Assembly: GCA_011319805.1 (NCBI GenBank)
Contig: SJRY01000260.1
Coordinates: 124,001 to 188,000 of the forward strand
Length of the DNA: 64,000 nt
DNA from: Macrocybe gigantea
Taxonomy: Eukaryota; Basidiomycota; Agaricomycetes; Agaricales; Callistosporiaceae
Direction: 5' to 3'
The notes under the pieces were generated by a model. That model saw only the letters and a list, made by a program, of their open reading frames with translations. It was not told the DNA's origin and made no database searches. Positions 5,054-32,110 of the stretch are shown one piece after another. A program made the translations under genes and the position numbers. Numbering within the stretch: position 1 is the stretch's first letter; every line of letters starts with the position of its first letter.

Positions 5054-5068
5054 TGTCAGCGATATTGT

Positions 5069-5387
5069 TGTAGGAATGTGAAGGGCCCGCTGACACACAG
5101 TGGAGCAGGAACAGAGTGCAAGCAGCCGGATAGACCGTGAGCTAGACTCAGGTTAAGGTTGAGTAGGAAAATTTTCTTTTCATTTTAGTATATAAACTTA
5201 GATGCCATTCACTCACGCACCTCAGCCGTTTCATTACAAACGCTGAGGTGAGCCCCTTCTAGTTTATTTAAACCGCCCGTTATCTTATATAGATTTGTAC
5301 CAGCTCCTTTATTTTAGGTAACTAATACCTCAGCCGTTTCGTTACAAATGCTGAGCTCCTTTATTTTAGTCTCAATTAATTATTAGA
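5069..5387 (+). repeat. 5' LTR of copia 2
   Basis: The 319-bp repeat has a TATA-like sequence (tatataaa, 5189-5196) followed by two copies of a hairpin-forming stretch (5220-5248 and 5328-5355), each CCTCAGC..GTTT paired with AAACGCTGAG(G). Confidence 0.97.
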
Positions 5388-5399
5388 GGTTATGGGCCC
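5388..5399 (+). other. primer binding site of copia 2 (initiator tRNA-Met anticodon region)
   Basis: GGTTATGGGCCC follows the 5' LTR directly, the same site as in copia 1, and includes the gag ATG (5392-5394). Two different families therefore share the half-tRNA-iMet site fused to the start codon. Confidence 0.75.
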
Positions 5400-9500: not shown

Positions 9501-9893
9501 ATCAATGGCGGAGCCATTTCCTGGAGCTCAAAACAACAGGAGCTCGTGACATTGTCGACAGCAGAAGCGGAGTACGTGGCGGTAACGCATGCAGCGAAGG
9601 AGGCCTTGTGGCTGTGCTCACTAATTTCAGGAGTCTTCGGTGCTGACTTGCCCGCCACCATGCTTTTCTCAGACAACCAGTCAGCTATTGCGCTCGCCAA
9701 AGAACAGAAGTTTCATGCACGTACCAAACACATCGATGTTCGCTTCCACTTCGTATGCTGGGTCATCGAAGAAGGAAAAATTCGACTCGTTTATTGCCCT
9801 ACAAACGACATGGTTGCTGACACGCTCACGAAGGCCTTACCGTCAGCGAAAGTCAAGCATTTCGCATTGCATCTTGGCCTATCCGTGGCTTGA
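6453..9893 (+). pseudogene. copia 2 Pol region, four in-frame TGA stops
   Basis: One continuous reading frame is broken at TGA 6699, 8073, 8205 and 8727. Domains in order are: protease (NDSGCTKHL, about 6664-6690, with an intact DSG); GAG-pre-integrase and HHCC zinc finger (LHRRLGH, about 7078; CEACVYGK); DDE integrase core (SDRGGEY about 7468; HNGIAERLNRT about 7563); RT (KARLVAQGF about 8531; FHVDDG about 8929); and RNase H (ADADG, STAEAEY). At each stop the neighbouring sequence suggests a lost arginine, for example YM-stop-QAPGY where I recall relatives reading YMRQPPG. This is consistent with CGA to TGA. The element cannot now make a full polyprotein. Confidence 0.92.
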
Positions 9894-9900
9894 GGGGGAG

Positions 9901-10219
9901 TGTAGGAATGTGAAGGGCCTGCTGACACACAGTGGAGCAGGAACAGAGTGCAAGCGGCCGGATAGACCGTGAGCTAGACTCGGGTTAAGGTTGAGTAGGA
10001 AAATTTTCTTTTCGTTTTAGTATATAAACTTAGACGCCATTCACTCATGCACCTCAGCCGTTTCATTACAAACGCTGAGGTGAGCCCCTTCTAGTTTATT
10101 TAAACTGCCCGTTATCTTATATAGATTTGTACCAGCTCCTTTATTTTAGGTAACTAATACCTCAGCCGTTTCGTTACAAACGCTGAGCTCCTTTATTTTA
10201 GTCTCAATTAATTATTAGA
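9901..10219 (+). repeat. 3' LTR of copia 2
   Basis: It is identical to 5069-5387 except at eight positions. At each one copy has CG where the other has TG or CA. It ends attattaga, followed by the target duplication attgt. Confidence 0.97.
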
Positions 10220-11211
10220 ATTGTATGGAACGATAATATCTTTAAAAACCTGGCAATTGAAGACAGCAGAAAGAAATTATTGCAGCAGTTGATTGAGGTT
10301 CATGCCACAGACCGACCGTTTGATGATTTTATAGAGGGGAAAGGTCTCGGCCTCATCATCAACTTGTTCGGTGGGTGATTCCTCTTGCTTGTCTCTGCTT
10401 TTTCTGGCTCATTTTGAAAAAGGACCCCCAGGAGTGGGAAAATCCCTCACAGTAGAGGCAGCCAGTGAACGTAAGCTCTTTTGACCTATTTATGATGTCT
10501 CTATTCCCTTACATATTTATGTTTTTCGAAGATTTGAGACGGCCTCTGTATTTTATTGAGGGGGGAGACCTAGGAACAGATGCCGGCAACGTTGACAGGG
10601 AACTGAAGTCCATCCTGGGACTAGTTCCAAAGTGGAATGCGATACTTCTTATCGACGAAGCGGACGTCTTTTTAGAAAAGCATGGCAATCATGACTTGAA
10701 ATGAAACGCGATTGTGGCCGTGTTCTTGCGTAAGCTTGAGTACATCAATATATCCTTGAGTTATCTGCTATCCACGCGAGCTGATGCATGATTTAGATAT
10801 TTCCGTGGCATTCTCTTTTTGACAACGAATCGTGCGAAGGAGTTTGATCTAGCATTTCAATCCTGCATTCATTTGTCTTTGCACTATAAAGACCTAAATC
10901 CCGAAACCCGCATAATGATTTGGAAGGCCCTTTACGAGAAAGCTCGCGACCAGGAGAGCGATGAAATCTCCGAAGAGGAGTTGAAGGCTCTGGCCAAGCG
11001 TGAGCTCAACGGGCGTCAGATCAGGAACGTGGTCAAACTAGCTTCCTCTGTTGCACGGTCAGAGAAGATGCCCCTAGCTTACAGACACTGCGAAGACATA
11101 TTGACTTTGACCTGCAATCCTATCAATTCCGAACGAACCGAGCAAGGATACAAGATTGGTACGTTGAACTCAAGTGCTGCCCTGCGTCGATCCTCACTTG
11201 AGCAGCGGTAG

Positions 11212-12044: not shown

Positions 12045-14016
12045 ATGATGAGTCCGCAGAAAGCATGGTATGGGATGTGGTCGTCCGTCATCATGGCCGA
12101 AAAGATAGCTCACGGTGTAGGTCTCAGCTAAGAAGCTCCAAAGAACCCCTCATCTAATCTTATCCATCCTCGACCCTGCCAGACTGCAATACTGACCGAC
12201 GTGATCGTCGATCCTCTCACTTCCAGCGTCTATCACATTGAAAGCCGACCATCTGAAAACGGCAGGAGTGTGTTAGTGAATTCAATGACAGGAACAGATG
12301 TCGTCAGTCAGGAGTGGAACGTCCGCACAGGTGTCCATGAGTACGGAGGGGGTGCAGCGGTCATATACAACAGTGTCGCTTATTTCTCTCACTACACCGA
12401 TGGAAAGGTGTACAAAGTCGAGGAATGGAAGGATACACCTAAGCCCATCACTCCAGGTGCGAAAAAGCTTTTCATGTTTAGGGTCGTCGGTTAAAGCTAT
12501 TGATTCGTGTGCTAGACAACAAACCATATCGATACGCCAACCTAGTTGTTCATCCAGTTCACAGCCACTTGCTAGTTGCAGTCTTGGAAGATCACATGGT
12601 CGACCTTCCTTCTGCTGTAGTTACAACCCTATGTGTCATCGACAGCAAGGCTAGATCTATACAAACTTTGGTATCCGGAGCTGACTTCTATGCCTCACCA
12701 ACCTTCTCCCCAGACGGGACCCGTTTCACATGGCAGCAGTGGTTCCATCCGGATATGCCCTGGGAAGGTGCAGAAATCCACGTTGCAGACGTCGTCATCG
12801 ACTCGGAAGGGAAGCTCGGCATCAAGAATGATGTCCACGTCGCTGGCGAGAGGATCAACATCAGTTCTGCATTCCCTCTTTGGGCCACCAATGACACCCT
12901 GGTCTTCACATCCGACCAGTCTGGCTATATCAATCCATGGAAGTATTCATATTCCAGCAAGAAAGCTTCCGCATTGTTCGATAAGCCAATAGAAAAGGAC
13001 TTCGGAAGCCCCGGGTGGTCGTTCAGCATCTTCCCTTATGCGATTCTGGACAAAGAGGGGAAGTTTGCGGTATTCTCTGCTGCATATGATGGTCGCTCGG
13101 CGTTCTTTCTTGTCGATCTTGTCAGGGGGGAGGAACCACAGCTTCTAGAGATGCCTTATGTCAGGATTCACACACCCCGCTCCATCTCGCGTGAGCGAAA
13201 CGAAGTCGCTTTCATCGGGGACAAAGTGGATGAGAGCCCCAGCATTGTCCGTTGCAGCCTTACCATGGCTAATAGCCCTGCATCAGCAAATATATCACTG
13301 TCTTCAATCAAACCACCACCCTCGCCTCTTTTCCCTGTGGAATTCGTCTCCACACCTAGACCCATCACTCTTCAGGCCCCGGATGGTAAGGAGAAACTCC
13401 ACGTCATTTACTACGGGCCTCACAACCCAAACTACGAGGGATCGAGCTTGGACGAGAAACCGCCTTGCATTGTGCATGTCCACGGCAGTCCGACTGACGT
13501 GCTCAGCCAAGGTCTGAGCTGGAAGACGCAGTATTTCACGTCCCGAGGGTGGGCCTGGTAAGCGAGAACTCTTGTCTAGGACAAGAATGAGTAACACTGA
13601 TAAAATTGGTGCTAGGCTGGACGTCAACTATGGAGGCTCCTCTGGCTATGGCAGAGCTTACATCAAGCGACTCGAGGGTAAATGGGGTATTGTCGACGTC
13701 AAAGACTGCATCCACATGGTGCACACGCTGTCCCGTGGACCATACAACCTCATCGACCCGAAGCACGTCATCATCCGTGGCAGTTCGGCAGGCGGATACA
13801 CCATCCTTGCCGCACTTACGATCGGGTCCGATCTGACCACCTTCGCTGCTGGCATGTCGTCCTATGGCGTGTCAGACCTGAAGATGCTGTGTAACTTTTC
13901 ACACAAGTTTGAGTCGCGGTATCTCGAGAAGCTCGTCGGTGGCACATATGAACAGGTCCCAGAGTTGTATAGAGAGAGATCACCAATTACGCATGCAGAC
14001 AAGATTGTGGCGCCGC

Positions 14017-14045
14017 CACTGTGAGCCCCGAGGGGGCGGAATAAA
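14017..14045 (+). repeat. left terminal inverted repeat of the CACTA element
   Basis: It starts CACTG and contains the G-rich block gagggggcgga. It pairs with 31784-31812 on the opposite strand with about six mismatches in 29. The host duplication CGC lies immediately outside, at 14014-14016. Confidence 0.9.
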
Positions 14046-15627
14046 TGACAGCGGGGGCCTGAAAGCTGAAAAAGTGGCGAAAGAGGTCAGATTTCGAAGG
14101 GTCGGAATGTGGTCGGTCTTGTAGCCAGAAAATTACAACTTTAATAGCAGTAAATTATTGATTATATTTGCATGAAAAAAAACTGACGATACGAGGACCA
14201 AAAAAACTGTACCTTTTGATGAGAAACGAAATGCGAAATACTTGTCGAATGGTGTCAGTTTATTGAGACACTTTTTGGCTGAGAATTGAGATGTTTAGAG
14301 TCAAGGACGTGGATGACGGTTTCTGATGTTTTGAAGTGACTTTTCAGCCATTTAGAGGCGACTACAAGCAAGCAGTGAATGTTGAAAAAAATCAACGTCG
14401 AGCAGCTGAATTGACAGACTAAATGAGTGATGACCAGAGCATACGCGTCGAAGAAACTGTCCCCGATGCGAATGTCACAGCTGAGTTGTTATGGTGCAAC
14501 TTGAGGATTCTCGTTGTGGCCTGCTCGTCAAACACTTGCCAGTCATTGAACAATGCTGCCCGCTCTCATTCGACCTGAACTCTTTTTCCTTATCGCATCA
14601 ACGCCGAAAAGCAGGAAAAAGAGGGAAATCGCAGCTGGCGCTTTCAAAAACGCCCTAGCATCATCAAAGCTGGTGATTTTGAACTGGTCGGGGCAATCCA
14701 AACCGAGATGGGTCTTAATGTAAGTTAACGGATGTCGTTTTGTCATTTGTATCTTCCAACTAACGACGTCGGTAGGGGCGGACTCCATAAATCCCCAAGT
14801 GAGCAAGCGAGTCATTGGACTTGGCAGGCCTTTCGCAATGGGCATGCATTCGCGACCGTACACATATTCGACGTCGATCTGAGGGTTGCGATTTGCTATG
14901 GGAACGGGGGAGAATGGAGCAAGAAAAAGCTGGACTTGAAGCAGCAGTGTCATCGTTTGGAGGGGGATGAGATTTGAACATGGACTTGCTGCAGTTTCCT
15001 GTCGATCGGTCCTTGCTTCCAATTTTGCTGCATACCTTTGATTTGCAAATACGTTTATTCACCAAAGCCTACACAAAAGTACGTTCATGCACTGAAGATG
15101 AGGGATGAGCACGTCAGATGACATGAAATTTGTATACAACGATTAAACTCACTACAATAAACAGTTGTCGATTGGGACGGCGATATCGTGGATGGTGTTG
15201 ACTCCGAATCACTGTTCACCCACATGGCCTACACCTGAAGACTTCAAATTTAATAATCGCAAGGCGAAGGAGATTGCGATGCGCCTTCAGGAGGCAAGTT
15301 GTGCCGAAAATGTACATGGCGTTGATTATCTTTGGTAGCCTTCGATGGCCATAAAAACCTGTATTCGTTTTCGGAGTACATTTTCACCGCGAGGGAGGTT
15401 CATGTCAGCAGTAGCTCTCCATGGTGCAGTTACTGCTGCCACCGATGCATCGCCACGGCGCTCATATTTGACGTGTCTTGCGACTCTTGCGGGGCCGATT
15501 CACAGCACTCGAGGACAGAGAAGATACATTTATTTCATTTCGTGATGAGGAAAAGACTGAACTAAAGATGTTTATAACCTGTTCATCATCAGATACACGT
15601 AAGACCAAGCTCGTTCAAAAGGCTAAC
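14046..15627. other. left subterminal region of the CACTA element
   Basis: No gene can be supported. A minus-strand open stretch (14543-15022, 159 codons) has protein-like composition but no motif I recognise and no clear exon context. The region lies beyond the transposase 3' end. Such regions usually hold short transposase-binding repeats, but I could not resolve a repeat unit by eye. Confidence 0.4.
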
Positions 15628-18600
15628 CTATTCATCCATAAGCTGATTCGTCTTGGTGCCTCCATCACCGTGATCGATGATTGCCCAAAGATTCCCGCAT
15701 TGGATTCGACCTACCAAGCACTTGACAGTACTTAGGTCGACTACCTCCTGAACCGCATTCTATGCATCCTTGCAGATTGGGACACCGATTGGAGTTATAT
15801 CTTGCACTGCAAGCTGTCTAATCAAGGCCAGCAGCAGGATCGTAGGGGCCGCCAACTTCAACTGATCCGATTGGGGAAGTCGGACCACAAAAATGCGCAT
15901 GAGTTGCCCATAAAAATTCTGCCAGACAAAAACGGGTTGTCGGCGACATTGATGGGCATACTTATCAACCTGTAGCACATACTTTCGATTCCTACATCAA
16001 TTATTTGTTCGCAGATGGAAGGAAGTACGCACTCGAATGTAGGACGCATCGCGGTTACCATCATACATTGCTACCAGATCGCGCACTTGAATGGAGTCTC
16101 CACCGCCATCTATTGCAACTCTCCCATATTGGATTATGGTCGCATCGTTTGTAAACACTTCTCGAACAATCTTCATCATTGAATCGTAGCGAGTCACCAG
16201 GTGCAAAATAATCTTCCTGTAGATTTCAGTGGGAAGAGGCCCATTTCGCCTTGGTCCAGAAAGGATCAGGTCAGGATCTTGGAAGGATTAGCTTTTGTCC
16301 TGACTGGAAATCGAATGATACCTACATGCTTCTGTCGTGAACTGGTTATCCAGTTTCTTTGGGTGCTCCAGTGAGATTTCTTTTGCAAGATTGTACATAA
16401 GTTTGATTTGAGAAAGATGAGCTGTCGCTGTCATATAATTGCTGATTGAGACGTAGGGGTTTCGGCGACTGGCGACGGCCGACAAAAGATCGTTGCATTG
16501 GCGCTCTATCGGAAAGGCCCAATATGCCCAAACAGGTCCCATTGCTCTGATACCATCTCCGATATGGAGCAACGCATGGATCATGAGAGGACAGGCAGAC
16601 AGTCATGCCGGATCATGCCGATAGTACAGCCTGGAGTTCTCCCGATGAGTAAATGCCAGAATGAAATTGAATAACGACTCACGTTTCGTATTTGATTACC
16701 CATGACTTGAAACCATTGTCAATGTCATCAACTTCTTCATCGGATATTTCGAATTGCAAACACAAGTTAAGCAGTCAGACGAGCTCGACGAAGTGATCAT
16801 AATATGCTTTGTCCGTAAAGGCATGCTCCAGCAGGATGGGCGCAAGATAGAGGGTCCACACTGATCGCATTTCAGCGGTAACCTTTCCGGGGCGCGTTGC
16901 TAGGTTCGGGACTCGAGTACCGAATGCAGATGGGATTGTCTTGCCAGCCTTATAAGATGCTTCCCTGATTGCATCCCATACATTTCGGTCTATGACATAG
17001 GCATTGCCCTCGCATTCCAGCTGCTTGAATTTGCCAGTCCAGAATGCTACGAGGTTGGGTATGAGATTCTCCCAGATAAGGTGCATGAAATCGAAAGGAA
17101 ATGACCATGGAAAGGAAAGAGAGCTTAGACAGCTCAATAGCGGCATTCCCTTGATGCCACACCTTTTCGACAACCTCTCTGCTGCGGCCTTGGTGGGTGC
17201 AATCTGGACTTCTTCGGCTTGTTGTATAAACTTGTCATGAGTCCGCAAGGGTAGGTCGTATGGATCGTATGACTGGTTGGACCCGGGAATATTGTCACAG
17301 TGGAGAGGTATGTAGTGAACGCGACACGCAACAGTTCGAATACCTTTGATCTCGCACAGGTGGCATGGGAAAACGGCATTTGGACCTTTCATTCACATAA
17401 CCAAGGCCATAGCTAGTATGTCACCGAACCCGAGGATTACATAGGCATGCATATTGAAGAGTCTTTGGATGAGGGAATCGAATGCGGGGATGCCTATGGC
17501 AAGTCAGATCATCTCTAAAGCACAGGGAAGCATGAAAGAATCCCAGTCCCATGGCTTCTTAGGACCGGGTATAACACCTAGACGCAGCTCCTTTCCTTTC
17601 CGAAAACGAATATCGGGGGCAAGATTATAAATGAACATGATGAGGGGCCAGGAGGTCTGCGGGCGATTCTTGAACACAGCGAACCCATCCATTGAGAACC
17701 CAAGAGCAATATCGCGCTCATCCGAAAAATGAAAAAAATCTAGGGTCTTGCCATCGACGGTTACAAATTCTTCGAGGAGAGAGCAGTAATGGCTGCCATC
17801 GAAGACGTCAGTGACAATGCCAGGCTCGTGTTTATGCTCCGCACAATAGCGCAGGGCTTGGGCAAATTCAACATTGGCCATCATTCCTCACAGTCGTGGA
17901 ATGATGGGGAGATATTCAAAGTACTTGCGTGCCTTGCCACCTTCTGTCCATCTCGGTTTGTTACAGTTGGGACATGTGTTGCAATCTTCATATGCGCTGG
18001 TAAAACAGACGCAGGAATTGACGCAACAATCATATCGCTCGGGCTCGAGACTGGACATAAACGCCACTCTCTGTTTTGTCTTCTTCAGAGAAAGATGGTG
18101 TGGGGATGGGCAGGCCACTTGCACTTTATCGAAGACAGCTTCGGTAAGTGGCCCTTCGGTCTTGAGCGCATACATGCAGAGAGTGCTAAGGTCCTCCTCC
18201 CGGAAAGACTGCCCATCTGAAAAGTATGGTTGAGGATGATAAAGCGAGAAGGGGGATATTGAAACACACTTATGGAAGCCATTGTGCGATAAAACTCTTC
18301 ACTTGGCCCGTCATAAGTCGAGACACCCGCCAACGGAAAATCTTCAAGATTCATATCTTCAAGATTGCCAGAGTCGTGTTCCCTATTATCTTCTTCGTCT
18401 TCACTGTCTTCTTTGTTGAAATCTTCATCGTCAATGGCCTCATCCGATTCGCTATCCTCGACTTGGAAATTGGCACACCAGCGAGTGTCCCTCAGCCGAG
18501 TCTTTTGCTCTTGAGTGAACTTGCAAGCGTGCGACACAATCTCGTCTTGGGGTGGAGAGCTGATGCCTTCATTCCCGGAATACTGTTCATTAAGGATAGG

Positions 18601-18666
18601 ATTGATGGCGGACTCTAGCTCAGATTCAGGAGTAGGGGATTGCTGGCTTGATCGATGGGTACAAAT

Positions 18667-18986
18667 TGTTAGGCTAGACGAATCTCAGAAGGACTCGGGC
18701 AGACTAAGTGCGAGAGTGGTCTTGAGATGATGGCAAAAGGAATATTAAGCCTAGCGCTACTGGTACATCTGGGAGTCCTTATATACATTACAGTACTCGA
18801 GCACGGACCATGGGCTGCGCAATGCTGTGGACTGCGGATGAGTAAGACTGGAAGGAGATGACTCAGGATGACTAGGGAAGTGGGATGACTCGATGGCTGC
18901 GTGCTGCGCAGCATGATGGGGGAGATAAGGGATGTGGGAAAGATAAGATACGAAAATGAATAGTCCTTTGGGCGGCGTCTGTAACA
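18667..18986 (-). repeat. 3' LTR of the gypsy element
   Basis: This 320-bp repeat differs from the other LTR at two sites: gtgcgag versus gtgcaag and gcgtgct versus gcgcgct. Each is a CpG transition. Confidence 0.96.
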
Positions 18987-19023
18987 TCACCCTCTCTTTA
19001 GATTCGCGTCCTCGTGAAAAACC

Positions 19024-19422
19024 TTAGTCCAGCTGTCCCCACCCAGTATTGGTCTCCCAGGCGGTCGCGGCACGCGGGGCCCATGTATGAATGAGCTCTT
19101 CATTATAGGCGCGAATGTGGTGGAGTGTGGTGGCGAGGAGTTTAAGTCGCCGGTTTTCTGTGCGAAGCATTTCCATTGCTTCGCGAAGCGCGATACGTTC
19201 AGCTGCAGTGGGGCCGGTCCCATCAGGGGTTCTCCCGGTCCAGAGGTGCGTGCGGACGGTCATAACATAGCGCATATATGCGCCGAGTGTGATGGCGAGG
19301 GGGTCCATGTAGTCGCTAGCATTGAGAATCCTTGCCAGATTCTCGAGGTCGCTTGGGCGGTTGGGGGTAGGTGCGCGGCTGCCCTCGCTGCTGTCGATGC
19401 TGATGGGGGCGTTGGTGGTCAT
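19024..19422 (-). CDS. extra ORF after gypsy Pol, ATGA overlap, unknown function
   Basis: This is a 132-codon ORF between Pol and the 3' LTR. Its ATG (19422-19420) overlaps the Pol stop TGA (19421-19419) as ATGA, an arrangement that allows translation by termination-reinitiation. The product has a helical, Arg/Glu-rich middle (TAAERIALREAMEML) and ends WETNTGWGQLD. No domain is recognised, and I see no signal peptide or membrane segment. It lies in the usual place for an accessory gene and is intact although Pol is not. Confidence 0.6.
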   Translation of the reverse strand: MTTNAPISIDSSEGSRAPTPNRPSDLENLARILNASDYMDPLAITLGAYMRYVMTVRTHLWTGRTPDGTGPTAAERIALREAMEMLRTENRRLKLLATTLHHIRAYNEELIHTWAPRAATAWETNTGWGQLD

Positions 19423-22400
19423 GAAGTGCGATTTTTGGTCTTCTTCCCTCTTGTCGTGATCCTTTTATCCTGGTTCGCAGTCTTCTTTAGGAAGTGGTCT
19501 AGAGCTTGCTGCGCATTCCCCAGCTCCTTCTCTTTGATCCATGTGTTCTCTTCGTGTCCGTATCCTTTCCATTTGACCAGGAATAGTGTCCCCCTCCCTT
19601 GTTTCTTCCTTTTTAGGATCTCTTCTATCTCGTACTCTTCTTCATCATTTATGATTTGAGGGGGTGGTGGTGATGGTCGCTCTTGTATCTTGAAACGGGG
19701 TCCTTTGTAAGGCGTGAGCAGTGTTTCATTGAACACGGGGTGTATCAGCTGCCATGATGCTGGGAGTTCCAGGCGATATGCCGAGGCTCCTTTCTTTTCA
19801 ACCACCTTGAACGGTCCATATCGGAGTGCCGATAACTTCTTTGATGGTCGGTTGACTGTGATGTTGGTGGCCTCTAGCCATACTCTATCCCCTTTCTTGT
19901 ATTCACGGGCTGGTCTTCGCCTCACATCGTAATTGTCTTTGGCTCGTGTTTGTGCATACTGCAGCGCAGCATTTGCTTCCTTCCGTATTTGGTTCATTCT
20001 TTTGACGAAGTCCTTTGCTGCGGGGTTATTTCCTTCTGTCGTCTGTGGCTCTCCCTTCCAGGGGTGTATTCCATAGTTGAGGTAGAATGGTGTCTCCTTC
20101 GTTCCCTGGTGTGCTTTGTCATTGTACTGGTACTCTGCGATTGCTATCCATTCTGCCCAATCGTCCTGTAAGTTGTTTGTGAAGCTTCTGAGGAAGGCTT
20201 CTGTTTCTTGGTGGGATCATTCCGCCTGTCCATCTGTCTGTGGGTGATAGGCCGTCGATAGGTTTTGCTTGGTTCCGAGTAATTTTAGAAGTGCTGTCAT
20301 GAATCGCGCTGCGAACTGGGGTCCTCGATCACTGATGATCTTTCGTGGGATTCCGTGAAGCCGCCACACATTGTCTCGGTATAGTCGTGCGAGGCCTTCT
20401 GCTGTGAGTTTGGTCTTTGTGGGAACTAGATGGATCATCTTGGTCAGGCGGTCTGTGACTGCAGCGATGGCATTGAAGCCATTCGAGCTGGGTAGCGGTC
20501 CTATGAGATCTACTCCGATATCTTCCCATGGTTGCTGTGGGACTTCGTGCGGGTGTAAGGGTGCGTGTTTCTTTTGTCGGATAATTTTGTTTCGCTGACA
20601 TGTCTCGCATCCATTGACATACTTCTTGATGTCCGTTAGCATTGATGGCCACCAATAGGTGCGGTTTATGAGCTCGTGCATGCGGTATTGTCCTGGGTGT
20701 CCTCCGATGGGTGTGTCATGGTGTTCAAACATGATGTCTTCCTTCAGTTTGTTGTCTGGAGGAACGTAGATTTTTCCTCCCACATATACGATGTGGTCGT
20801 CTTCTGTGAACCAGTGTGGTTTTTCCTTTAGTCCTGTTGTTACGATCGTTTCCCTTCGTGCGCATTGTCGAATTTGTTCTATCCTTGAGGATTCGATCAT
20901 CGTGATTCCTCTTGTTTGTATTGTTTCGTTATTTTCTGCTTCTCCTTTCCGTGGGTGTTCGTCCTCGAACATCATAAATTCAAAGTCTCGTTCATTATTC
21001 TCTTCCAGATGTCGAATGAATGCTGCTTCTTTGATCATTTGTATGTCGTCCTTCTCTGCTAGGTTTTCTTCATATCCCGCCATCCGTGACAGGACGTCCG
21101 CTTTTCCATTCGCCTTTCCTGGTACGTGTCATAGTTCGTAGTCGTATTCTTGTAATTTCAGGTACCAGCCAATCTGTCTCGAATTGAGTCGCTGTGGCTT
21201 CCGGAAGTATGATAGGTTTTTGTGATCCGTCAATATTTCAAACTTCTCTCGAGCTTCGAGGAGGTATTGTCTCCATGTCTTTAGTGCGACCATTATTGCA
21301 AGAAGTTCCTTGTCGTAGATTTCGTAGTTCTGCTCTGCTGGGGTCATGCATCTCGAAATGAATGCAATTGGATGCCATAGTCCTTTCTGCTGTTGTGATA
21401 GTACCGCTCCAATGGCATATCCTGAGGCGTCTGTTTCGACTCGGAATTTTCCTTCTGTTTGTGGTAGTGCTAGAATGGGTGCTGAGGTTATATGTCGGAT
21501 CAGCTCTTTGAAAGCGTTCTGTTGCTTGTCTGTCCACTGGAATGCTTTGTTTCCAGTCAACTCCGTCAGGGGTTTGGCGACCTTTGCATATCCCCTGATG
21601 AATCGTCGGTAAAAGTTCGTGAATCCTAGGAACTTTTGTAGTTCTTTCTTCGTCTTTGGGGTTGGCCAGGATTGTACGGCTGTGATCTTTTCTGGTTCCA
21701 TTTCTACCTTCCCTTCTCCTACGATGTATCCTAGTACTGGGACTTTTGATGATTCCCAGACGCATTTCGGTCCTTTGATGAACAGGTCATTCTTGTTCAG
21801 TATTTCCATGACTTCTATGGTATTCTTTTGGAGTTCCTCTCGTGTTCGTCCGATGATTATGATGTCATCCATATAGATTATGCACACTCTTCTTCGTATT
21901 TGGTCTTGGAAGAGGCTCGCCATCATTCGGCTAAAAGTGCCTGGTGCGTTGCACTGTCCAAAATACATGACTGTCGGTTCGAAGAGTCCTCTTGCTGTTA
22001 GGAAGGCTGCCTTCCATTCGTCCCCTTTCCGGATGCGCACGTTATTGTATCCCCAGATAATGTCGATCTTGCTAAAGTATTTTGCTCCTTGTAGTACGTC
22101 GAGGAGTTCGCTGATGCGTGGTAGTGGGAACTTGTCCTTGACTGTGTATTTATTTATCTCCCGGTAGTCTTGGATGAGTCGTTTGCTTCCATCCTTCTTA
22201 TTGCGAAAGAAGCAGGGTGCTGCGTAAGGTGATTTCGATGGGCGTATTTTTCCTGTTCGTAATCCTTCTTCGACGAAGGCATCTAGTTCCTCTAGCTCTT
22301 TCTGTGTCATCGGGTAGACCTTGCTCGGTATCGTTTTGGGTGCATCCTTCGTTAGGTTTATTTCATGGTCCCATTCTTTATGGTCTGGTAAGCGGTCAAA

Positions 22401-23062
22401 GTTCTTCTCCTTGAAGAGGTGTTTGAATCTGATCAGATATGGGGGTATCTGGGTTCCTGTCTTGTCGCTGGCTGTGGTTTTCGCTGATTCAGCCATCTTC
22501 TGTATCTTAATCGTCTGGTGGTTTATTTTGCACGTTTTAGGGCATCTGTCGAAGACAACTTCTCCTGTCCTCCATTTGATTGTTGGATTGTGGTAGACAA
22601 GCCAGTCATGTCCTAGTAGCATGTCGGTTTTTCCGATGTCGAGTACGATGGCTTCCATGCGCTCCTTGTGTCCTTTAATGTCGATGTGGACCTCCGCTAC
22701 TCGGTCTGCTGTTTTCTGGTGGTTGGGTGATCCGTCTGCATTTATGATGGGAATCTTCTTGATTCGTCGTGTCTTCAGTCCTGTTTTTGCTACTATCGCG
22801 GTGTTGATGCAGGTCCTATCCGCTCCGCTATCGACTTCTGGTGTTATCGTTGTGGTTCCTTTTCGTGTTCGTATCCTCGCTGGTACTGCAAGTTCTTTCC
22901 TCTTTGGTGGTTTGTCCCCTTGGATGGTTTTCCTTGGTGCTTCAGATCGCTTGGCAGGAATGGTGTATTTCAGAGTATGGGATGATCTACATCCGGTATC
23001 GAAGCGAGTCTGTTTCAGTTGTATGGGTCGCGATTTAGCACCTCCTAGTCGGACCCTTCGGC
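19419..23062 (-). pseudogene. gypsy Pol (protease, RT, RNase H, integrase, chromodomain), two TGA stops
   Basis: The Pol frame is open through the Gag end, consistent with a -1 shift, and runs to TGA 19419, broken at TGA 21129 and 20217. Domains are: aspartic protease VDSGADRTC (about 22830); RT with IIYMDDIII (about 21885); RNase H VETDASGYAIGAVL (about 21440) and DHKNLSYF; an HHCC integrase zinc finger (HHDTPIGGHPGQ ... CETCQRNK, about 20730-20590); the DDE core (DLIGPLPSS; SDRGPQFAARF); and a C-terminal chromodomain (YEIEEILKRKKQG ... FLVKWKGY ... NTWI, about 19640-19530). At each TGA the expected residue is arginine (YEL-R-HVPGK and GQAE-R-SHQE). The chromodomain probably directs integration to modified histones. 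Confidence 0.93.
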
Positions 23063-24802
23063 AAAACCCTCTTTATCAGAGCTTTCTTCATCCTTGTCTT
23101 CTTCGTCCTCTCCTTCTTCTTCTTTCACTTCTCTGACCCGGGATTTTCCTTTCTTCTTCTTCTTGCAGTTCCGTGCATAATGTCCCTTTAAGCCACAGTT
23201 GAAACATGTGACATTTGCTGCTCCTTTTCGTGGTTCCGGGCAGTTTCGTGAGATGTGTCCTGGTTTATTGCAGTTGAAGCAGTTGTTGCTTCGTACTTTG
23301 TCGACTTCCATGGCCTGTCCTGCTCCTCGGCTTGGATTTCCGGCCTTGCGCTGATTGCTTGTGAATTCTCCTCTCATCACATTTCTGTGTTCATCGATGT
23401 TTCGTCCAATCGCTCGAACTGTCTTGATATATTCATCTCCATCTGTTGGAAGTGTGGAGATCGAGTGTACGGCTTCTGCTGTCCTTCGGTTTAAACTCTT
23501 CTCGAGTAGGAAACGAGGGGCTGTTCCTGTCATTCCTGCTTTCCCTGCGAGGTCCACGAATTCATCCAGAAATTCGTCGATGGGTCGGTTTCCCTGTCTG
23601 ATGTTGAATAGTTTGCTTCCTGCTTGTGATGGCGACATGACGTTGCTGAATCGTGTCTCTATCTCGGTTATGAAGTCGGCCCATGTGCTTTGGTTGGTAG
23701 TGGTGTCGATCTTCTTTGATGCCCAGTGGGCTCCGGGTCCGTCGGTCATTCTAGACAGGACCGCTCCAATCTTCTGTGTATCCGTGAGGTCTCCATGTGC
23801 GGTTATGTAGAGTTTCATCTTCCTCCACCAAATATCGAAGGATGTTCGATCTCCTGTAAAGGATTTCGGGTCGGCGATGATTCCCTTGTACTCTGTCGTC
23901 ATCCTTTGGGGGTTTTCTTCGTCGTTCTCTTGGTCTTGGTCTTCCTGTTCCTGGATCTGTTGTTCTTGGGTCTGCTGTGCTTGTACTTGGGCTTGCTGTT
24001 CTTGGAGCTGTTTCTGTCTTCGCTCCTCTCTCTGTTCTTTCCAGTAGTCTAGGTCGACTCCTGCGATCCTACAAGCTTGTTCAAAATCAGCCCACTCTGC
24101 AGCGGTCGGTCCGGTTGTCTTTGGTAATCCTTTTCGCTCCCTCCACCGATAGTATTCGTCCCAGTCGCTGTTGCTTACTTTCGCCACGGTGGTGCGATTC
24201 TCTCCTTATGCAGTGCTTCGGCGGATTGGTCCTCTGAAGGGATTCGGCGGTTTTGTTCCTGTGTGTCCTTGACTCTGGTGTCGTTCTCATTGGTTCTGTC
24301 GTATGCTCTGTGCGTTGTGCCCTCTCTGTATCAGTATGTCTTCCTCCTGTGTTCGGCGATTATAGTTCTCGATCTGTTGTCGCCTAAAATCTCGGGCTTG
24401 TGTTCGTTCTTCTCTTGTTTTCTTGCGGATGGGTTCGTCCTCTTCTTCGGCAAGAAGATTCTGGTCTGACCACAGCTCTTCTGGGCTTATCCCGTATTCT
24501 CCTTCTAGGAAAAGTTCTGCAATGAGTTGTGCTGCTCCTTCGCTGAGGATCTCAGCGGGCTCGTCTGTGGTGGTGAAGGCAAACTCTCTCAGAAATGCCT
24601 GTTCTTCGTCGTCGCTACTTGGTGTAGGCGTGCGCTCTCTCTTTCGTTTGTTTGGATTGCTAGTGTCTCTGCGGATGGCGTGGACTGTCTCTGCGAATGG
24701 CGTGGACTGCAATGTCTGGTCTACTTCTCTGAGCCAAGTGCTCTCGTCGCTCGTGCTAGTGCTCGCTGGGTCGGCGACCGCTTGTCGTCGAATGTTGATC
24801 AA
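23045..24802 (-). CDS. gypsy Gag, with TGA and TAA near its middle
   Basis: One frame runs from ATG 24802 to TAG 23045, broken by TGA 24287-24289 and TAA 24206-24208. The first 171 codons are acidic and charged. The second part begins DWDEYYRWRERKG and holds the capsid-like retrotransposon Gag domain (about 23870-23560) and two CCHC knuckles (CFNCNKPGHISRNC near 23280-23240 and CFNCGLKGHYARNC near 23205-23165), then a basic and an acidic tail. There is no ATG at the head of the second part (the first candidate codon is GTG 24187), so I read both parts as one Gag with two nonsense mutations rather than two genes. The frame overlaps Pol, which is in the -1 frame. Confidence 0.8.
23063..23069 (-). 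promoter_or_regulatory. candidate -1 ribosomal frameshift heptamer G GGT TTT
   Basis: On the minus strand GGGTTTT sits 16 bases before the Gag stop, in the X XXY YYZ phase relative to Gag (ga-G GGT TTT). A -1 shift there enters the Pol frame, which is open onward to the protease. Function is inferred; no downstream pseudoknot was modelled. Confidence 0.55.
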
Positions 24803-24868
24803 GTCTTTGATAAAGCGTGACGTGGTGTGTGTGTGAGTCTGAGCGAGTCTCGACGAGGCTTAATATCT

Positions 24869-25188
24869 TGTTAGGCTAGACGAATCTCAGAAGGACTCGG
24901 GCAGACTAAGTGCAAGAGTGGTCTTGAGATGATGGCAAAAGGAATATTAAGCCTAGCGCTACTGGTACATCTGGGAGTCCTTATATACATTACAGTACTC
25001 GAGCACGGACCATGGGCTGCGCAATGCTGTGGACTGCGGATGAGTAAGACTGGAAGGAGATGACTCAGGATGACTAGGGAAGTGGGATGACTCGATGGCT
25101 GCGCGCTGCGCAGCATGATGGGGGAGATAAGGGATGTGGGAAAGATAAGATACGAAAATGAATAGTCCTTTGGGCGGCGTCTGTAACA
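24869..25188 (-). repeat. 5' LTR of the gypsy element
   Basis: It is the partner of 18667-18986 and lies upstream of Gag for the minus-strand element. The duplication caaat follows at 25189-25193. Confidence 0.96.
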
Positions 25189-26258
25189 CAAATGAATCAT
25201 CCTTGAAAGATGCTTGCGGGGGAGGAGAATGATGGGAGGGGCTTGGGTTTGGGGGTGCAATTGCCTTCCTTCTCTTCCTGGCCTGTCCGCTCTCGTCGCC
25301 AGTCGCTGTAGACATCGGCAGCCTCTGTTTTGAACTGGTGCCTTCATCTAGAAACGATACCTCCTGATGATCAATGAGATCCATTTCGGTAAGAATGTTT
25401 TTGCCAAGATGTCGGACCGTCTTCAAGTTACGGTGCCTCTGGGCAGTCTTTGAATGATAATTGCCTCCACATCCGCAATCACAAGGAATTTTTTTCGGGG
25501 GTTTGGACTGTCGTGGGGGCATGTTAGGGCGAGGAGAACAAGTTGACGTGTTAGTTAGAAGGACTTACTTATATCCTTCGGATCACAGGTAGTTTAGCAG
25601 CAGACGGAACATATCAATGCACGTAAGCTATCTGCTTCAGGTATTATGCAACGTTGGACAATGCGGACATGGGCAACTCGAACATACCAGGTTGAGCTGC
25701 TCAATATCGACACAAAGAACCTCCGGAAAATTACATCAAGTGCCCATGGAACTGAACTTCTGCACAGAGTATACTCCTGAAAAAATATACTGGGGGATTC
25801 AGTGTCGTCCTTCGGAGGGAAATAAGGAATCCTCGGGAATGTTGAGGATGATGCGGAGTCAAGACCCCAATGGACACCTTGACCATCCCCCCGTCGCTTA
25901 CCTGCCCCATCCTCAACTGGTGAGTACCTCTCCTCTTCATTGCCCTCTCCAATCTGGACTCGAGTCTTAACTTCGTGTTAACTCGAGAGGGTCTCAACTT
26001 CATGTTGGCCCTGGCAAATTCACTTCGTGTGCTTGCCCTCCTCCCCTGTTGATCTTGATCGAGTCTCAGTGTACTGTCATTGGAATGATCCACGATGCTT
26101 TTCCTCTGTGTGACCTTGTTTGAGTCACCGATGGCTCTAGAAGCAAGCACAGGAGAATCCCATCTCACTCTCGCCTTCCGGCTCTCTTCAAAACTAGATT
26201 CCGTGAGTTCATTTTTCGTTCCTCCCAGATTGGTTTTAAACAACTTCTCAGTGTTCAG

Positions 26259-28560
26259 ATGGCTTCATTATTCTTCAATGGACGCTCCGCAATTGATACC
26301 GCCAGGGTTTTAGCGAAGCGCAGGTTTGACAGTGAGGCTTTTCAGCTTTCTGCCATACTTTATTTTTTTCTGACGCCCTGGCAGAACCCCTTCTACCTTG
26401 GGATGGCCGTGTTGCAGCAGTGATGGGCAAAGTCGTCTGTACCACACCTAACGGGGATTACATTCCTTTCCCGCCCCTGGGCCAATGTGACGTTCACCTG
26501 TGAGCTGATTATCGTTACGGCGAAGATGACCCAATGTTGTGGCCGCAACCATATATGGGTGACTACCCACATCTGGGCTGCATACCGATGAAACCATCTG
26601 ATCCCAGTGACCCCCTTTCCATCATGTGGTGGGATCCGACGATGGATGATTTTGCACCTATCTCTAACAGCTTAGTCAGTGGGATCGGATACCTGGCAAA
26701 GACAAAGTTTGATGTTTTGGAGATGATGATGAGGGCACTGCGTAGATGAGTAGAGGAATATAAGAAACGTGCTAAAGTACCGGATGCGTCCCTTCTTGCA
26801 CTGGAAAAAGGAATGCATCACGCCTGTGTCCGCCTCGGCTCTCTACCATCGTCATTTGTTGAGATGAGGTTCGGGGTCACCAAATTCCAAAGATACTACC
26901 TCGAAATCCATGCATTATTGGATTATCTGGAGATTTACGTGCCTCGTGTGGTGGGCCAAATGACCGTCGCAACACACACTGAAGACTGCATTGGCATTTT
27001 TACCAATGTCCCACACGTGGCTTACGATTACGCCGCGGCTGGAATTCCAGTTTGGCTTCTATGCACTGAGGAGGATTTCTTAGCCACGGCAGTAGACATC
27101 AATATCCTGTCCTTCACCCAACCTGTCTTTGCTGCGGACTGCGTATGCACAGCTAAAAATGACCCTCCCTTCCCGACAATCTTTTCCAGTCCTGCGAACT
27201 CTCCGGCCAAGCATATAGCGATCCATCGCTACTCGCAGACGTGGCTTGTCTTTAGAGATCCTTTCGATGCTTATGCCAACTCTGTTCCCATGGATCCATT
27301 CATGCTAGGTCGTCAGGCCCCGACAGAGTCAATAGGTCGAACGATGGAGGAGTTGATGAAACCTCAAACAATGCCACCTGCAATGCAGAAGAAGGGAACA
27401 ACAAGTGCGAACATTCGTGAGTTATGGATAATTCGTTGTTGTGGCAACCAGCTCACCAGTCTTTAACAGCGTCAAAGTGTCAAAAAGCGTCAGCGTCAAT
27501 ATCGACGAGCAGCTGTGACAAATATGCCCCTCTTGAAAGCCCTATGGCTCCCTTCACAATCCCCGTCTGGGCAGCCGCCTTGAAAGTGGTGGATAGGACA
27601 CTGTCGCGGATCATTCAGGATGCAATACAATTTCGTACTTGCGGCCACTATACCTTTCCGGATCCCGGTCTCTTTGTCACTCCCGCCAGCGACGACAGGA
27701 AAGCAAAGTTTTTCGAGGCTTGGCTATGGCTATGCCCTGCTTGGTTATGGCATGTCCTGAGCAATGCATCGAGCACCATGTCCGCCCAATATTGGCGTGA
27801 TTATCTTTCAATGGGTTATATTGCGACCCATAATGATGATAGCGCAGCAGCGAAACGACGCAGGCAGATCGTTGCTTACATGGAACCGAATCGTGACTTT
27901 CCTGGAGTGATGGAGCCACGCGCCATTGTCGGTGAGCCTCTGAAGTGGTTGGGACAGGAATTTCTGCCTAGCTCGCTTCCTCCATTGAACATCACCCGCG
28001 AGATTCTTTGGAAACTTTACGAGTTGAATTTTCGATATGATTTACTCGCTTTAGATCGCCACGCCTATGCCAGTGGCGACACGTCTGATGTGGACACCAT
28101 TCTCGCCTGACAAGATCTCCTCGCCGCTTGCTTTCCATCCTGTCAGGTTCTCACCGCCATTGACATACCTCCGGTCAATAGCGGGCTAGCAGTGAATGAT
28201 TGGCAAGTTCGCCTACCTTTTGTCATAGCTCTCGCGCAGGTCATGCATATGTGGAAAGGCCCCAAACCTGACCTCCTCGTCTCACCTCCCGATGCCAACA
28301 CATGTACTGAAGAAATTGCAAATGAACTGGAGCGTGGATGTGCGCAATATTTTACACAAACTTTCTTCGACTTTTTCGGCAGAGCTGCCATGATCCCACA
28401 TCGCATTTATCCTTGAAAACCTCTACTTTACGACGTGTTACAGACCAATGCAATAATCCAGTTGTCCCATTCACTTCTCCTTGGCCTGATAAATCTGTAC
28501 ATGGACCAGCGAATCGGTGATGATTTGAAGAATTCCGATGGCCTAAATATGTTTGAATCA
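26259..28560 (+). pseudogene. CACTA cargo gene 1: large conserved basidiomycete protein of unknown function, four TGA stops
   Basis: It begins with ATG 26259 (MASLFFNGRSAIDTARVLAKR). An intron with a GTGAG donor (26332-26384) is followed by a long exon with PWDGRVAAVMG, GDYIPFPPLGQCDVHL, GEDDPMLWPQPY, MWWDPTMDDF, FQRYYLEIHALLDYLEIYVPR and AAGIPVWLL. After another intron near 27420-27480 come PFTIPVWAAALKVVDRTL and a C-terminal part. I recall this motif series from a large family of uncharacterised agaricomycete proteins, but I know no function for it. In-frame TGA stops at 26501, 26747, 28108 and 28414 all fit CGA to TGA. Because the gene lies inside the inverted repeats and shares the transposase's decay, I infer it is cargo of the element rather than a host gene. 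Confidence 0.75.
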
Positions 28561-29045
28561 GTAAGTTTCAGTCTCTTGACCAGAAAGGTTTCTTACCGGT
28601 GCGACGACGCCCAGCTTTGCCATTTTCTTCAAAGGCTCCTCATCGTCTGGGTCTTCCAGCTTCCTCTTACCTAAAAGGACATTCAAGATCTTCGAATCAT
28701 AACAAAATATGCAGATACTCACCGTTTTTGACAGGTACTGGTTGGAACCGAACTTTTGCAGAATGGGTTTGCTTTGTCGCACTCGCTTGAGTTGCTGCCC
28801 TTCCACACATGCTGCATGGGCATTTGGCCAACCGTCCTTTGCTTGCAGTGGCTGTCATGAAGAAGATGGGCACTCTTATCAAAAGAACATAGGAAGCCAC
28901 CCATACCTGCTTCAACAGCGTCAACAGCGCTTTCTGGCTCCGTCTCGGACTCAATTTCTACAGCCGGCCTTCCCGACGGCCATCGCTGGGTATCGGGAAT
29001 AGTATAAGAGTCAAAAGAAGAAGAGCTTCGACTATGGGTATTCAT
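28558..29045 (-). CDS. CACTA cargo gene 2: small Cys-containing, NLS-bearing protein of unknown function
   Basis: Three exons on the minus strand give about 125 codons. Exon 1 starts at ATG 29045 (MNTHSRSSSSFDSY) and ends in an acidic ESETEPES stretch. The middle exon holds CPCSMCGRAA, and the last exon holds GKRKLEDPDDEEPLKKMAK, a plausible bipartite nuclear signal. Introns have GT donors (gtatgg, gtgagt) and AG acceptors, and the frame is free of stops. Its 3' end abuts or overlaps the 3' end of cargo gene 1 on the other strand. The CxCxxC pair could bind metal, which is inference. No family is recognised. Confidence 0.5.
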
Positions 29046-29687
29046 GCTGGAATGCTGGGTGCAATACGATAGAGGGAGACGTTTTATATCTAACGGGCTA
29101 ATTGATTTCCTTTTCAGGCTAGTTGTGTCCGGATGGGACTTGCTCACCATAACACGATGCTCCGAAGTGGTTTTGATGCCAGAAATTCTGTGGTTCGGCC
29201 TTCCCTGACAATATATTTTACAGCAGCGCTTGGTAGAAAAACCGCAGACCACTATCTGCGTGCTCCCCGATCAGCTAGCAGGATTTTTTCGGAACTTATC
29301 CACTCGATCGCCGCTTCTGCTATGATTCCGCGATGGACGAATTGCAAGTATTCTCCATGTCCACAAAGCCTGCTATGGATTGAACATCAGCTCAACTTTG
29401 GATTCTGCATTACAAGGTTAGATGCACCGTTCCTCCCTCCGTGTCTATCTATTAGTCTCAATACCATTGCAGGACAAAGATACGAAAAGGTTTGCATTTT
29501 TTTGCATTCCGTATACACTTGCTAAACGCTTCGGAACTTATCATGCTCGCTTGACCGTTTTTTTTTTTCGACTGATGTGCACCTATTCCATTTCTGCACA
29601 GGCTCCTTGTCCATTTCGTAATTTTTGCCTTGGTTAAAAGCCCAAGAAGCTCGAGTGCAGTCCAGCTTCCTGCCCATTCACCCCACC
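29046..29687. other. spacer between cargo genes 2 and 3
   Basis: About 640 bp probably serving as the divergent promoter region for cargo 2 (-) and cargo 3 (+). It contains a 10-base T run (tttttttttt near 29560). I see no gene. Confidence 0.5.
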
Positions 29688-31345
29688 ATGGTCACCAAAG
29701 CACGAAATACCTCGAAGGTTATGCCCTCAGCATCAAAGGAGAACCGCGTGCCGGGGACACGGGCCCTCACTGCCGTGAAGTCCACGGTAAGTATGACTTT
29801 GTTACAGAATGACATCATTGCTGGCTGACTACGATACATTGCAGAAGGCAGATGCGATTACCCACCCTGCTTTGGTCGAGAAGCTGCAAGGCCAGCACGC
29901 TCCGAACGCTGGCCCACCTGCCAGAACCGTGAGTGGCCTTCTTATTATAACCTTCAGATTCATTGCTAACTATGATACGTGGCAGAGGACAGGTCCAATT
30001 GCCCACCCTGCTCTGGCTGAGAAGTCGCAAGGTCAGCGCCCTTCAAACATTGCCTCATCTGCCAGAACTGTAAGTATCCTTTCTATTACAGCCCTCAATT
30101 CCTACATCCACTCCTACAGATCTCGAAAGGCAGTAAGGCGTTAAAGACATATGCTGCGTGACACCGCAAAACGAATGCGGCTAAAGCATCTGTTATCGGC
30201 CCATCCGTACCAACTGTGAAGGCGCCCGTGAACACAAAACTCAATAGTTCGGTCGGTAACATGACAGCGAAACAGCAAATTGCATTTTTGAAAGGTCTGT
30301 ACGGATAATTTCATTCCCGTGTCCATTAGGTGATCAAAAGGTTCATTTTCAGCCAAGCTCAACCTTTATGAGAAGAGAGAGGCTGCACGTAAACATGTGG
30401 ATCCGGCCGCTTCCATTGCAATGATCGAAGAGCCTGAAGGATGCTACAACCTTTGTGAGGCCATGCAACTTACCAGCAACAAGCCACTTTATAGCAAGAT
30501 CAGGGTATGTGTCTGGCTGTATTCGACGTGTGCGCACATTTCTGAAGAGATTTTATAGGCTCTCATCCGAAAGCTCTTGCAAAAGTACGGTATCAAGATG
30601 GGCGCAACATATGACTCTGTCAAGAAAAAGGTCCTTCTCGTAATTTGTGCCTCGGTATGTTTTTTTATGAGTGTTGGGCATTTCCCTGAAGTACACCCGC
30701 AGGCTGAACAAAAGATACCATATCTGGAGCGATTCGTGGGCTCATGGCCCGTCCTAAGAATGGTCCGAACGATTCTCAAGAACCAATGATACTACCGCCG
30801 AGGCAACCCCGACAGTGATGATGACAACAATGGCATCAAGAATCAAGTTCCCGTTCTCAATGGCATGGATGTGGAGGTCGCGGCTGAGGGTGGGAATGGT
30901 CCTGATGAGGATCAGGAGATGGACAATGTTGAGGATGATGGTGACAGTACGTGCCCAATCATTATACTGAAAATGCTGAACTCCTTTTCCTTTCCGTTAT
31001 CTCTCAGGCTACAATCTTGACATAGACATGGAGAACTCCCATGGTGACGTGTACGATGATTACAATGACCTGAATATGGAAGCTTATGATGAAGACAGCA
31101 GGAACGGTGATCTCGGCAGGTATGAGTACTATTACAACAATGACGACGAGGCTATGGAGCCTGAAGGTGGCGGTGACGCTGATGAGGATATGGAATCTGA
31201 AGGTGGTGACGACGACGATGAAGCTATGGAGCCCGAAGCCGGCGATGGCGATATCGAGCACCCAAATGCACTGGCGTCCCACACTCGTTCCAGGAACCGC
31301 CGTACTGCCGCCAAAGCCATAGAAAGTGACGTCGATTCTGCTTAA
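29688..31345 (+). pseudogene. CACTA cargo gene 3: multi-exon protein with acidic tail, two TGA stops
   Basis: Exon 1 is 29688-29786 (MVTKARNTSKVMPSASKEN). Exons 2 (29845-29928) and 3 (29986-30069) are both 84 nt, phase 0, and homologous (ITHPALVEKLQGQ versus IAHPALAEKSQGQ), a tandem exon duplication. Later exons give KLNLYEKREAARKHVDP, a helical segment (ALIRKLLQKYGIKMGATYDS) and IPYLERFVGSWPVLRMVRTIL, resembling a repeat family I recall from uncharacterised agaricomycete proteins. The last exons encode a strongly acidic tail (EAMEPEGGGDADEDMESEGG) and end SRNRRTAAKAIESDVDSA. TGA at 30159 and 30787 replace a probable arginine (AA-R-HRKT; NQ-R-YYRR). All visible splice sites are GT-AG. The function is unknown; the acidic tail and basic N-terminus suggest a chromatin or nuclear protein, which is inference. 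Confidence 0.68.
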
Positions 31346-31783
31346 TTATACATAAATTTAATGAACTTTTTACCTACCTCTTTCTCTCCTTTGCGTCACA
31401 TTTTCCTTACAATTTCTCTATTAATTTTCAGCTTCTTAGTGCCATAATTTAAGCCAATCAAAGATGTGCTCAATAATTTTAAATGGCAATATTTTCGCTC
31501 TTGGTGTTCGAAAAAAACCTCCATCACAAATTGAGATGAATAGATGAAATGGGTATTAATATTTCGAACCTTTTGAGCTGAATTCGGGGGCTGAATGGGA
31601 ACAAAATTCACCATAAATTTCCACTGTTTCCTGTCTACTTTTAAGCCACTTTACAGCAAGAAATACTGACTATCCTGGTCTAAAAATCGGCCTCTCCAGG
31701 TCCGGTTTCTTGATGAAATCTACCGAGTTTTTCAACGTTTTGATGTACAGAAAATTGATCTTGTCAGGCAGAAATGAGTCGAT

Positions 31784-31812
31784 TTTTTTCCGCCCCCATC
31801 GGTCTTACAGTG
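31784..31812 (-). repeat. right terminal inverted repeat of the CACTA element
   Basis: It ends ttacagtg on the plus strand, the complement of CACTGTAA, and includes ccgccccc, the complement of the left-end G block. CGC follows at 31813-31815. Confidence 0.9.
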
Positions 31813-32110
31813 CGCTCTTGGTGGGTCGCCTCTTCTACTTCCCCCCCGCTGGCACGACGACATTCTGACATGTTATTCCCCGTTGCAGATTTTGCAGGGC
31901 GAAATCGACAAGGTAGTGCCAAAGGAACAAGCAGAGACGATCCACGAAAGCATCAAGTCCAGGGGAGGTGTCGTCGAGTACAAGCTATATCCTGGAGAAG
32001 GACACGGCTGGCGACAGGAGAAGAACATAGCAGACTCCCTTGATAGGGAGATAGCCTTCTATGAGAAGGTCCTGGGTTTGCGCGACGAGACTGCTAAGTC
32101 AACGATGTGA

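Follow-up and report, generated by a model that had tools for sequence, protein, structure and literature searches.

Macrocybe gigantea is an agaricomycete of the order Agaricales. Here we describe a DNA transposon of the CACTA (EnSpm) type in a stretch of 64,000 nucleotides of its genome (GenBank assembly GCA_011319805.1, contig SJRY01000260.1, positions 124,001 to 188,000), hereafter called the window, to which the positions below refer. The element occupies 14017-31812, has ends of the form CACTGTRAG.. and is flanked on each side by the target site duplication (TSD) CGC. Besides its transposase gene it carries three further genes, cargo 1, cargo 2 and cargo 3. Between the terminal inverted repeats (TIRs) the order is transposase (reverse), cargo 1 (forward), cargo 2 (reverse) and cargo 3 (forward). 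Within this one genome the cargo genes travel inside the TIRs together with the transposase, and transposase, cargo 1 and cargo 3 hold this layout across several diverged transposon families. The cargo genes are inherited with the transposase and, in the case of cargo 1 and cargo 3 at least, also selected with it.

The element and its genes

The left TIR (14017..14039, forward strand, CACTGTGAGCCCCGAGGGGGCGG) follows the TSD at 14014-14016; the right TIR (31790..31812, reverse strand, reverse complement CACTGTAAGACCGATGGGGGCGG) is followed by the second CGC at 31813-31815. Both are CACTG-ended and identical at 18 of 23 bases. Three genes between inverted repeats had been predicted from the sequence of the window, and their places and strands are confirmed. 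Three properties assign the element to CACTA/EnSpm: TIRs beginning with CACT(A/G) (CACTGTGAG at 14017, CACTGTAAG at 31812), TSDs of 2-3 bp (CGC in the window, TAG and TTA in near copies on contigs C256 and C3) and a transposase of the Transposase_21 (tnp2) family, to which one piece of the window gene was matched by Pfam (E 7.7e-7, 29.0 bits, cutoff 28.6). The other two transposase pieces and the N-terminal piece, all scanned against Pfam, gave no Transposase_21 match; a related open reading frame (ORF) on C35 matched with E 1.4e-21. CACTA/EnSpm transposases are further characterised by DDE residues together with C2C and H(3-4)H motifs (PMC12730594). The ends of Plavaka elements, given as TGT..ACA or CATCA..TGATG in section 20 of PMC12730594, were not found at this element, which ends in CACTG..CAGTG.

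The insertion splits a host gene encoding an S9 peptidase of the prolyl-oligopeptidase type, with the 5' part at 12132..14016 (forward strand) and the 3' part at 31816-32110. When the flanks are joined with a single CGC, an uninterrupted S9 peptidase gene is restored (..ITHADKIVAPLL, intron, ILQGEIDKVVPK..). The 3' part matches Pfam Peptidase_S9 with E 5.8e-9.

The tnp2-type transposase gene extends over 14543..25522 on the reverse strand, with its start codon at 25522 and an approximate 3' end. It is disrupted by stops and by a nested Ty3/gypsy long terminal repeat (LTR) element (18667..25188, reverse strand), which does not belong to the CACTA unit. The gypsy element is young, its LTRs (18667-18986 and 24869-25188) differing by 2 mismatches in 321 aligned bases, and is bordered by the TSD CAAAT at 18662-18666 and 25189-25193. 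Gypsy sequence also adjoins the transposase of the C256 copy (L060).

Cargo 1 (26259..28416, forward strand) lies head to head with the transposase gene and encodes about 650-700 residues. Cargo 2 (28597..29045, reverse strand, approximate 3' end) encodes a small protein bearing a CPCSMCGR motif and a basic stretch resembling a nuclear signal (KRK..KK). Cargo 3 (29688..31345, forward strand) has several exons and encodes a coiled region, a core with the motif W..LKNQR.YR, a long acidic tail and a basic C-terminus; the core is common to the cargo 3 proteins of the window, C35 and C248. Two of the cargo genes had been thought to share the decay of the transposase, and these are cargo 1, with in-frame stops, and cargo 3, with one in-frame stop. 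The frame of cargo 2 is open across its three modelled exons.

Layout, selection and co-divergence

Searches for genomic context covered the one genome (41.2 Mb, 333 contigs), and repeat counts are lower bounds. With a full tnp2 relative as query, 13 related tnp2 loci of at least 45% identity were found: C35, C275, C75, C256, C259 (the window), C3 (114 kb), C145, C248, C169, C257 (two pieces counted as one locus), C244, C62 and C3 (contig start). Cargo 1 is located within 10 kb of 11 of them, head to head in every case. The two loci lacking it are C62, where ten stops occur, and the contig-start copy on C3 (base 4), whose head-to-head neighbour would fall beyond the contig edge. No cargo 1 was found near six remoter tnp2-like loci (C22, C111, C4, C38, C230 and C227; 23-33% identity). 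The chance of such an association is estimated at 9e-21, a figure that assumes independent loci, which the copies are not.

Cargo 3 was found by search at ten loci (C259, C256, C145, C3, C75, C33, C35, C275, C257 and C244), at all of which it is downstream of cargo 1 and on the same strand. The cargo 3 of C248 was added by reading 2.5 kb at the expected place (tblastn E 3.4e-5); the corresponding stretch of C169 was left out of the count. Cargo 2 is present at six loci, each time on the strand opposite to cargo 1. At the place and on the strand of cargo 2, C169 and C248 share an acidic ORF at 65% identity, for which no similarity to window cargo 2 was detected, and C35 has, by eye, a small ORF with a basic end.

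The TIR pattern was recovered at both element ends in the window copy, in C256 and in C3, where it is exact once and has one mismatch once. The three different TSDs of these copies show at least three insertions of the module as a unit. Six copies (C259, C256, C3, C145, C33 and C75) have the right TIR about 1 kb past cargo 3. The C256 copy (L047, L050; beyond 71077) abuts an ORF that by eye resembles an SR-protein kinase.

Selection was assessed by the ratio of non-synonymous to synonymous substitution rates (dN/dS) between subfamily C75 and the others. The values were 0.17 and 0.16 for the transposase (204 and 203 codons), 0.26 and 0.24 for cargo 1 (223 and 224 codons of one exon), 0.31 and 0.26 for the core of cargo 3 (111 and 110 codons) and 0.53 and 0.47 for cargo 2 (90 codons). 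All eight bootstrap intervals lie below 1, the highest upper limit being 0.95 (cargo 2), and in all eight tests the real frame has a lower value than both shifted frames (0.56-2.16). Together with the near copies on C256 and C3, each with both TIRs and a 3-bp TSD of its own, this preference for the coding frame places the module beyond chance. Cargo 2 comparisons with C3 (0.68-1.15) were dropped, since this copy is broken and aligns poorly. The signal for the ORF of C169 and C248 is weak (0.35 versus 0.48 and 1.74 in the shifted frames and 0.54 on the reverse strand).

Cargo 1 and transposase are correlated in their protein distances (r 0.96 for 45 pairs among 10 loci, inflated by near-duplicates; none of 5000 permutations was as high). 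With one locus for each of five families, r is 0.79 on rounded distances, and 3 of 120 permutations were as high. The transposases of families sharing the layout differ by 33-52%. Layout across families, co-divergence and dN/dS make the cargo genes selected parts of a four-gene element. We are thus highly confident that all three cargo genes belong integrally to the CACTA element and are selected, and the original prediction that they form part of the transposon has good support in this genome.

Several observations weigh against this conclusion. All context evidence comes from a single genome, and TIRs were observed within the window's own family only. C145 has the same outer flank as C3 (L073, L069), so that the two are one insertion (allele) or a duplicate and not independent. 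Their common flank suggests alleles separated in the assembly or a segmental duplication. In other families no sequence relative of the window family's cargo 2 was detected, and only ORFs at the same place and on the same strand are seen. The dN/dS tests of transposase and cargo 1 rest on one exon each (about 204 and 224 codons), and the shifted-frame controls are themselves partly below 1 (cargo 1 frame +1, 0.56-0.62; cargo 3 frame +2, 0.64-0.73). The lower control falls within the bootstrap interval of the real frame in one of two cargo 3 tests and in both cargo 2 tests. Given this overlap, we regard selection as firmly supported in transposase and cargo 1, fairly in cargo 3 and weakly in cargo 2. 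The recent pair C35-C275 has higher dN/dS values (0.63 and 0.71) and near copies range from 0.12 to 0.90; higher values of recent pairs are expected of dying copies. Finally, among 21 cargo 1 loci (search at E <= 0.01), tnp2 is found beside 11, the other 10 being without transposase. Purifying selection is evident even there: for cargo 1 of C124 and C59, where the transposase is lacking, dN/dS is 0.16 (interval 0.10-0.23), which implies a role of cargo 1 without this transposase.

Cargo 1 copies without a transposase

The expectation that these gene families always sit beside CACTA transposases therefore fails for cargo 1. The opposite outcome, in which homologues would mostly be isolated host genes, was not seen either. 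One of the ten loci without tnp2 (C33) is a CACTA remnant in which the second half survives of cargo 1, followed by cargo 2, cargo 3 and the right TIR. At two (C332, C294) the copies stop where the contigs stop, and one (C146, 61 kb) is a decayed copy. At the remaining six (C48, C59, C124, C146 at 234 kb, C231 and C331), a TET/JBP-like gene follows cargo 1 in the same orientation, 1.4-1.8 kb downstream.

In this downstream gene HxD..H..R was seen by eye, which we take to be the pattern of 2-oxoglutarate dioxygenases. Its top Pfam family is Tet_JBP with E 0.077, under the cutoff, and of six PDB sequences listed for it, four are Tet-type dioxygenases (E 0.06-0.15). Similarly weak similarity has been described for distinct TET/JBP-like proteins of Agaricomycete transposons (Kojima 2025; PMC12730594, section 21). 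A 136-residue query from the TET-like gene detected 16 loci in its own genome, 6 of them beside cargo 1. It gave no match in the window or within 10 kb of the tnp2-linked cargo 1 loci, where a remoter TET type could escape the query. At L067, cargo 1 and the TET/JBP-like gene follow one another at 4863-8748, with proline-rich low-complexity ORFs upstream.

Five of the six dioxygenase-linked units have a common right end (..AAGTCTTAATAACC), with no match for C331. This end has 20 matches in the genome and no inverted partner nearby. All six units lie no more than about 25 kb from the end of a contig. The cargo 1 copies without tnp2 have 3.5-9.3 kb in common at 95-99.9% identity. That they are host genes was considered and is countered by this near-identical stretch, the common right end and the dioxygenase partner. 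In a midpoint-rooted tree, five of them (C59, C124, C331, C332 and C294) form one clade (100/99), which sits among CACTA-linked copies, beside C257 (84/96, the join not being firm).

Elsewhere in the window, ORFs of a Ty1/copia-type polyprotein (6702-9893; integrase, reverse transcriptase and RNase H by eye) and broken ORFs resembling by eye a fragment of an AAA-type ATPase gene (10202-11211) were noticed.

Cargo protein families and possible roles

Cargo proteins 1, 2 and 3 have no Pfam family at cutoff. Cargo 1 belongs to a family with 164 proteins at E <= 0.001. Among the best 120 of these the organisms named are Phlegmacium, Panaeolus, Mycena and Favolaschia (two of these species were looked up in taxonomy and both belong to the Agaricales), and the proteins are hypothetical or uncharacterised where named, except for one with the UniRef label 'DUF429' (P0113). 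This label was not confirmed, as a Pfam scan of P0113 gave no family up to E 1, and none of nine cargo 1 homologues reached the Pfam cutoff. For cargo 3 no public homologue was found at E <= 0.001. The motifs of cargo 1 and part of cargo 3 had been ascribed to very abundant uncharacterised agaricomycete proteins, which is borne out for cargo 1 by its 164 matches and not for cargo 3.

Structure prediction of a cargo 1 homologue (P0002), as had been suggested, yielded a confident model with a predicted local distance difference test score (pLDDT) of 89.7 and a predicted template modelling score (pTM) of 0.87. A homologue of the N-terminal domain was modelled equally well (pLDDT 90.4, pTM 0.87), and fold comparison gave no clear match for either model. 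The full alignment of cargo 1 has two nearly invariant charged residues and the N-terminal alignment has eight (R40, D42, R44, D49, H63, R170, E174 and D289 in P0015). The low number in the full alignment had suggested a non-enzymatic scaffold, an idea dropped in view of the eight residues; cargo 1 may be either an enzyme or a scaffold.

The best explanation overall, which we consider probable, is that the cargo genes are integral and selected in an autonomous-type CACTA lineage of Agaricales, in which they would provide helper functions. The transposase would cut at the CACTG ends. Cargo 2, with its cysteine motif and basic signal, and cargo 3 would be nuclear proteins with a TNPA-like role, binding the DNA of the element or chromatin. 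Cargo 1 would aid expression or transposition of the element, most likely by countering silencing, because its only other repeated partner in this genome is the TET/JBP-like dioxygenase gene.

It is plausible that the cargo proteins are accessory transposition or chromatin factors, as the original prediction had proposed. That they act, as a class, as helpers of either transposition or anti-silencing seems to us as likely as not. Given the precedent of maize TNPA and the pairing with a TET-like gene, a link to silencing is attractive for cargo 1, for which an anti-silencing role specifically is put forward tentatively. The protein VANC of Arabidopsis VANDAL elements, a transposon protein that counters silencing (PMC10398659), may be a functional analogue. 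Somewhat more speculative is the proposal that cargo 1 (about 670 residues, no recognised fold) may represent a new class of mushroom transposon-borne anti-silencing factor, serving either a CACTA transposase with two small nuclear proteins or a TET/JBP-like dioxygenase. If true, cargo 1 would connect one counter-defence pathway with two distinct kinds of repeat unit in fungi.

The alternative that survives best, though doubtful, is that the cargo proteins may be strict co-factors of transposition without a role in silencing, among which the TNPA function, with binding of subterminal repeats, would be split. Maize Spm needs the products of both tnpA and tnpD, and TNPD stabilises TNPA on DNA, as described in the part of PMC1636069 drawn on here; the basic nuclear-type stretches of cargo 2 and cargo 3 are consistent with such a function. 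It is at odds with the selection on cargo 1 where the transposase is lacking. TNPA itself, moreover, also reactivates a methylated promoter (PMC1636069), so that co-factor and anti-silencing roles are not mutually exclusive.

Unlikely in our view is that cargo 1 originated in another mobile or subtelomeric repeat, or as a host gene, in partnership with the TET/JBP-like dioxygenase, and was later recruited by CACTA. The six units with a dioxygenase gene, the low dN/dS there and the single clade of the five tnp2-less copies in the tree would agree with this origin, but the position of that clade among CACTA-linked copies is at least equally compatible with a transfer out of CACTA into the other repeat. 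Passive capture, by which host genes were caught between CACTA ends by chance, in the manner of plant CACTA and Pack-type elements, and are now decaying, would explain the stops in cargo 1 and cargo 3 of the window and has a published parallel in the mobilisation of fragments of host genes by CACTA elements of plants (PMC1947982), but is very improbable and already largely refuted by purifying selection, by co-divergence and by a transposase-cargo 1-cargo 3 layout kept across families so far apart, the window cargo moreover decaying in company with its transposase.

An integral set of cargo genes has partial counterparts in known systems. Maize En/Spm also belongs to the CACTA superfamily and requires at least one further element protein besides the transposase for movement; its proteins TNPA and TNPD are splice forms of one transcription unit (PMC1636069), whereas the cargo genes are three separate genes on both strands. 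A further contrast with TNPA is drawn from the lack of a Pfam family at cutoff for the cargo proteins. Fungal DNA transposons with a TET gene, EnSpm families among them, likewise carry a non-transposase gene (PMC12730594). According to the sections of that paper used here, EnSpm elements of Puccinia striiformis have CAC..GTG ends and 3-bp duplications, EnSpm also occurs in Agaricus bisporus, and in Puccinia the Harbinger families with a TET gene code for a third, unidentified protein too. In contrast, the window element has no TET-like match and carries other gene families, and the TET-like gene stands beside cargo 1 only in units without tnp2. CNIRT6 of Cryptococcus is a fungal CACTA element with CACTG ends as well; in the part of PMC12810828 consulted, a single transposase gene (CNAG_01367) is described and no cargo module.

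The cargo 1 family is large and mostly uncharacterised or unnamed, and the CACTA membership of its relatives in this genome gives it a likely home. To the biology of CACTA elements outside plants a four-gene variant is added. The element, together with the unexpected partnership between cargo 1 and a TET/JBP-like gene, offers a concrete test case for how a fungal DNA transposon may escape silencing.

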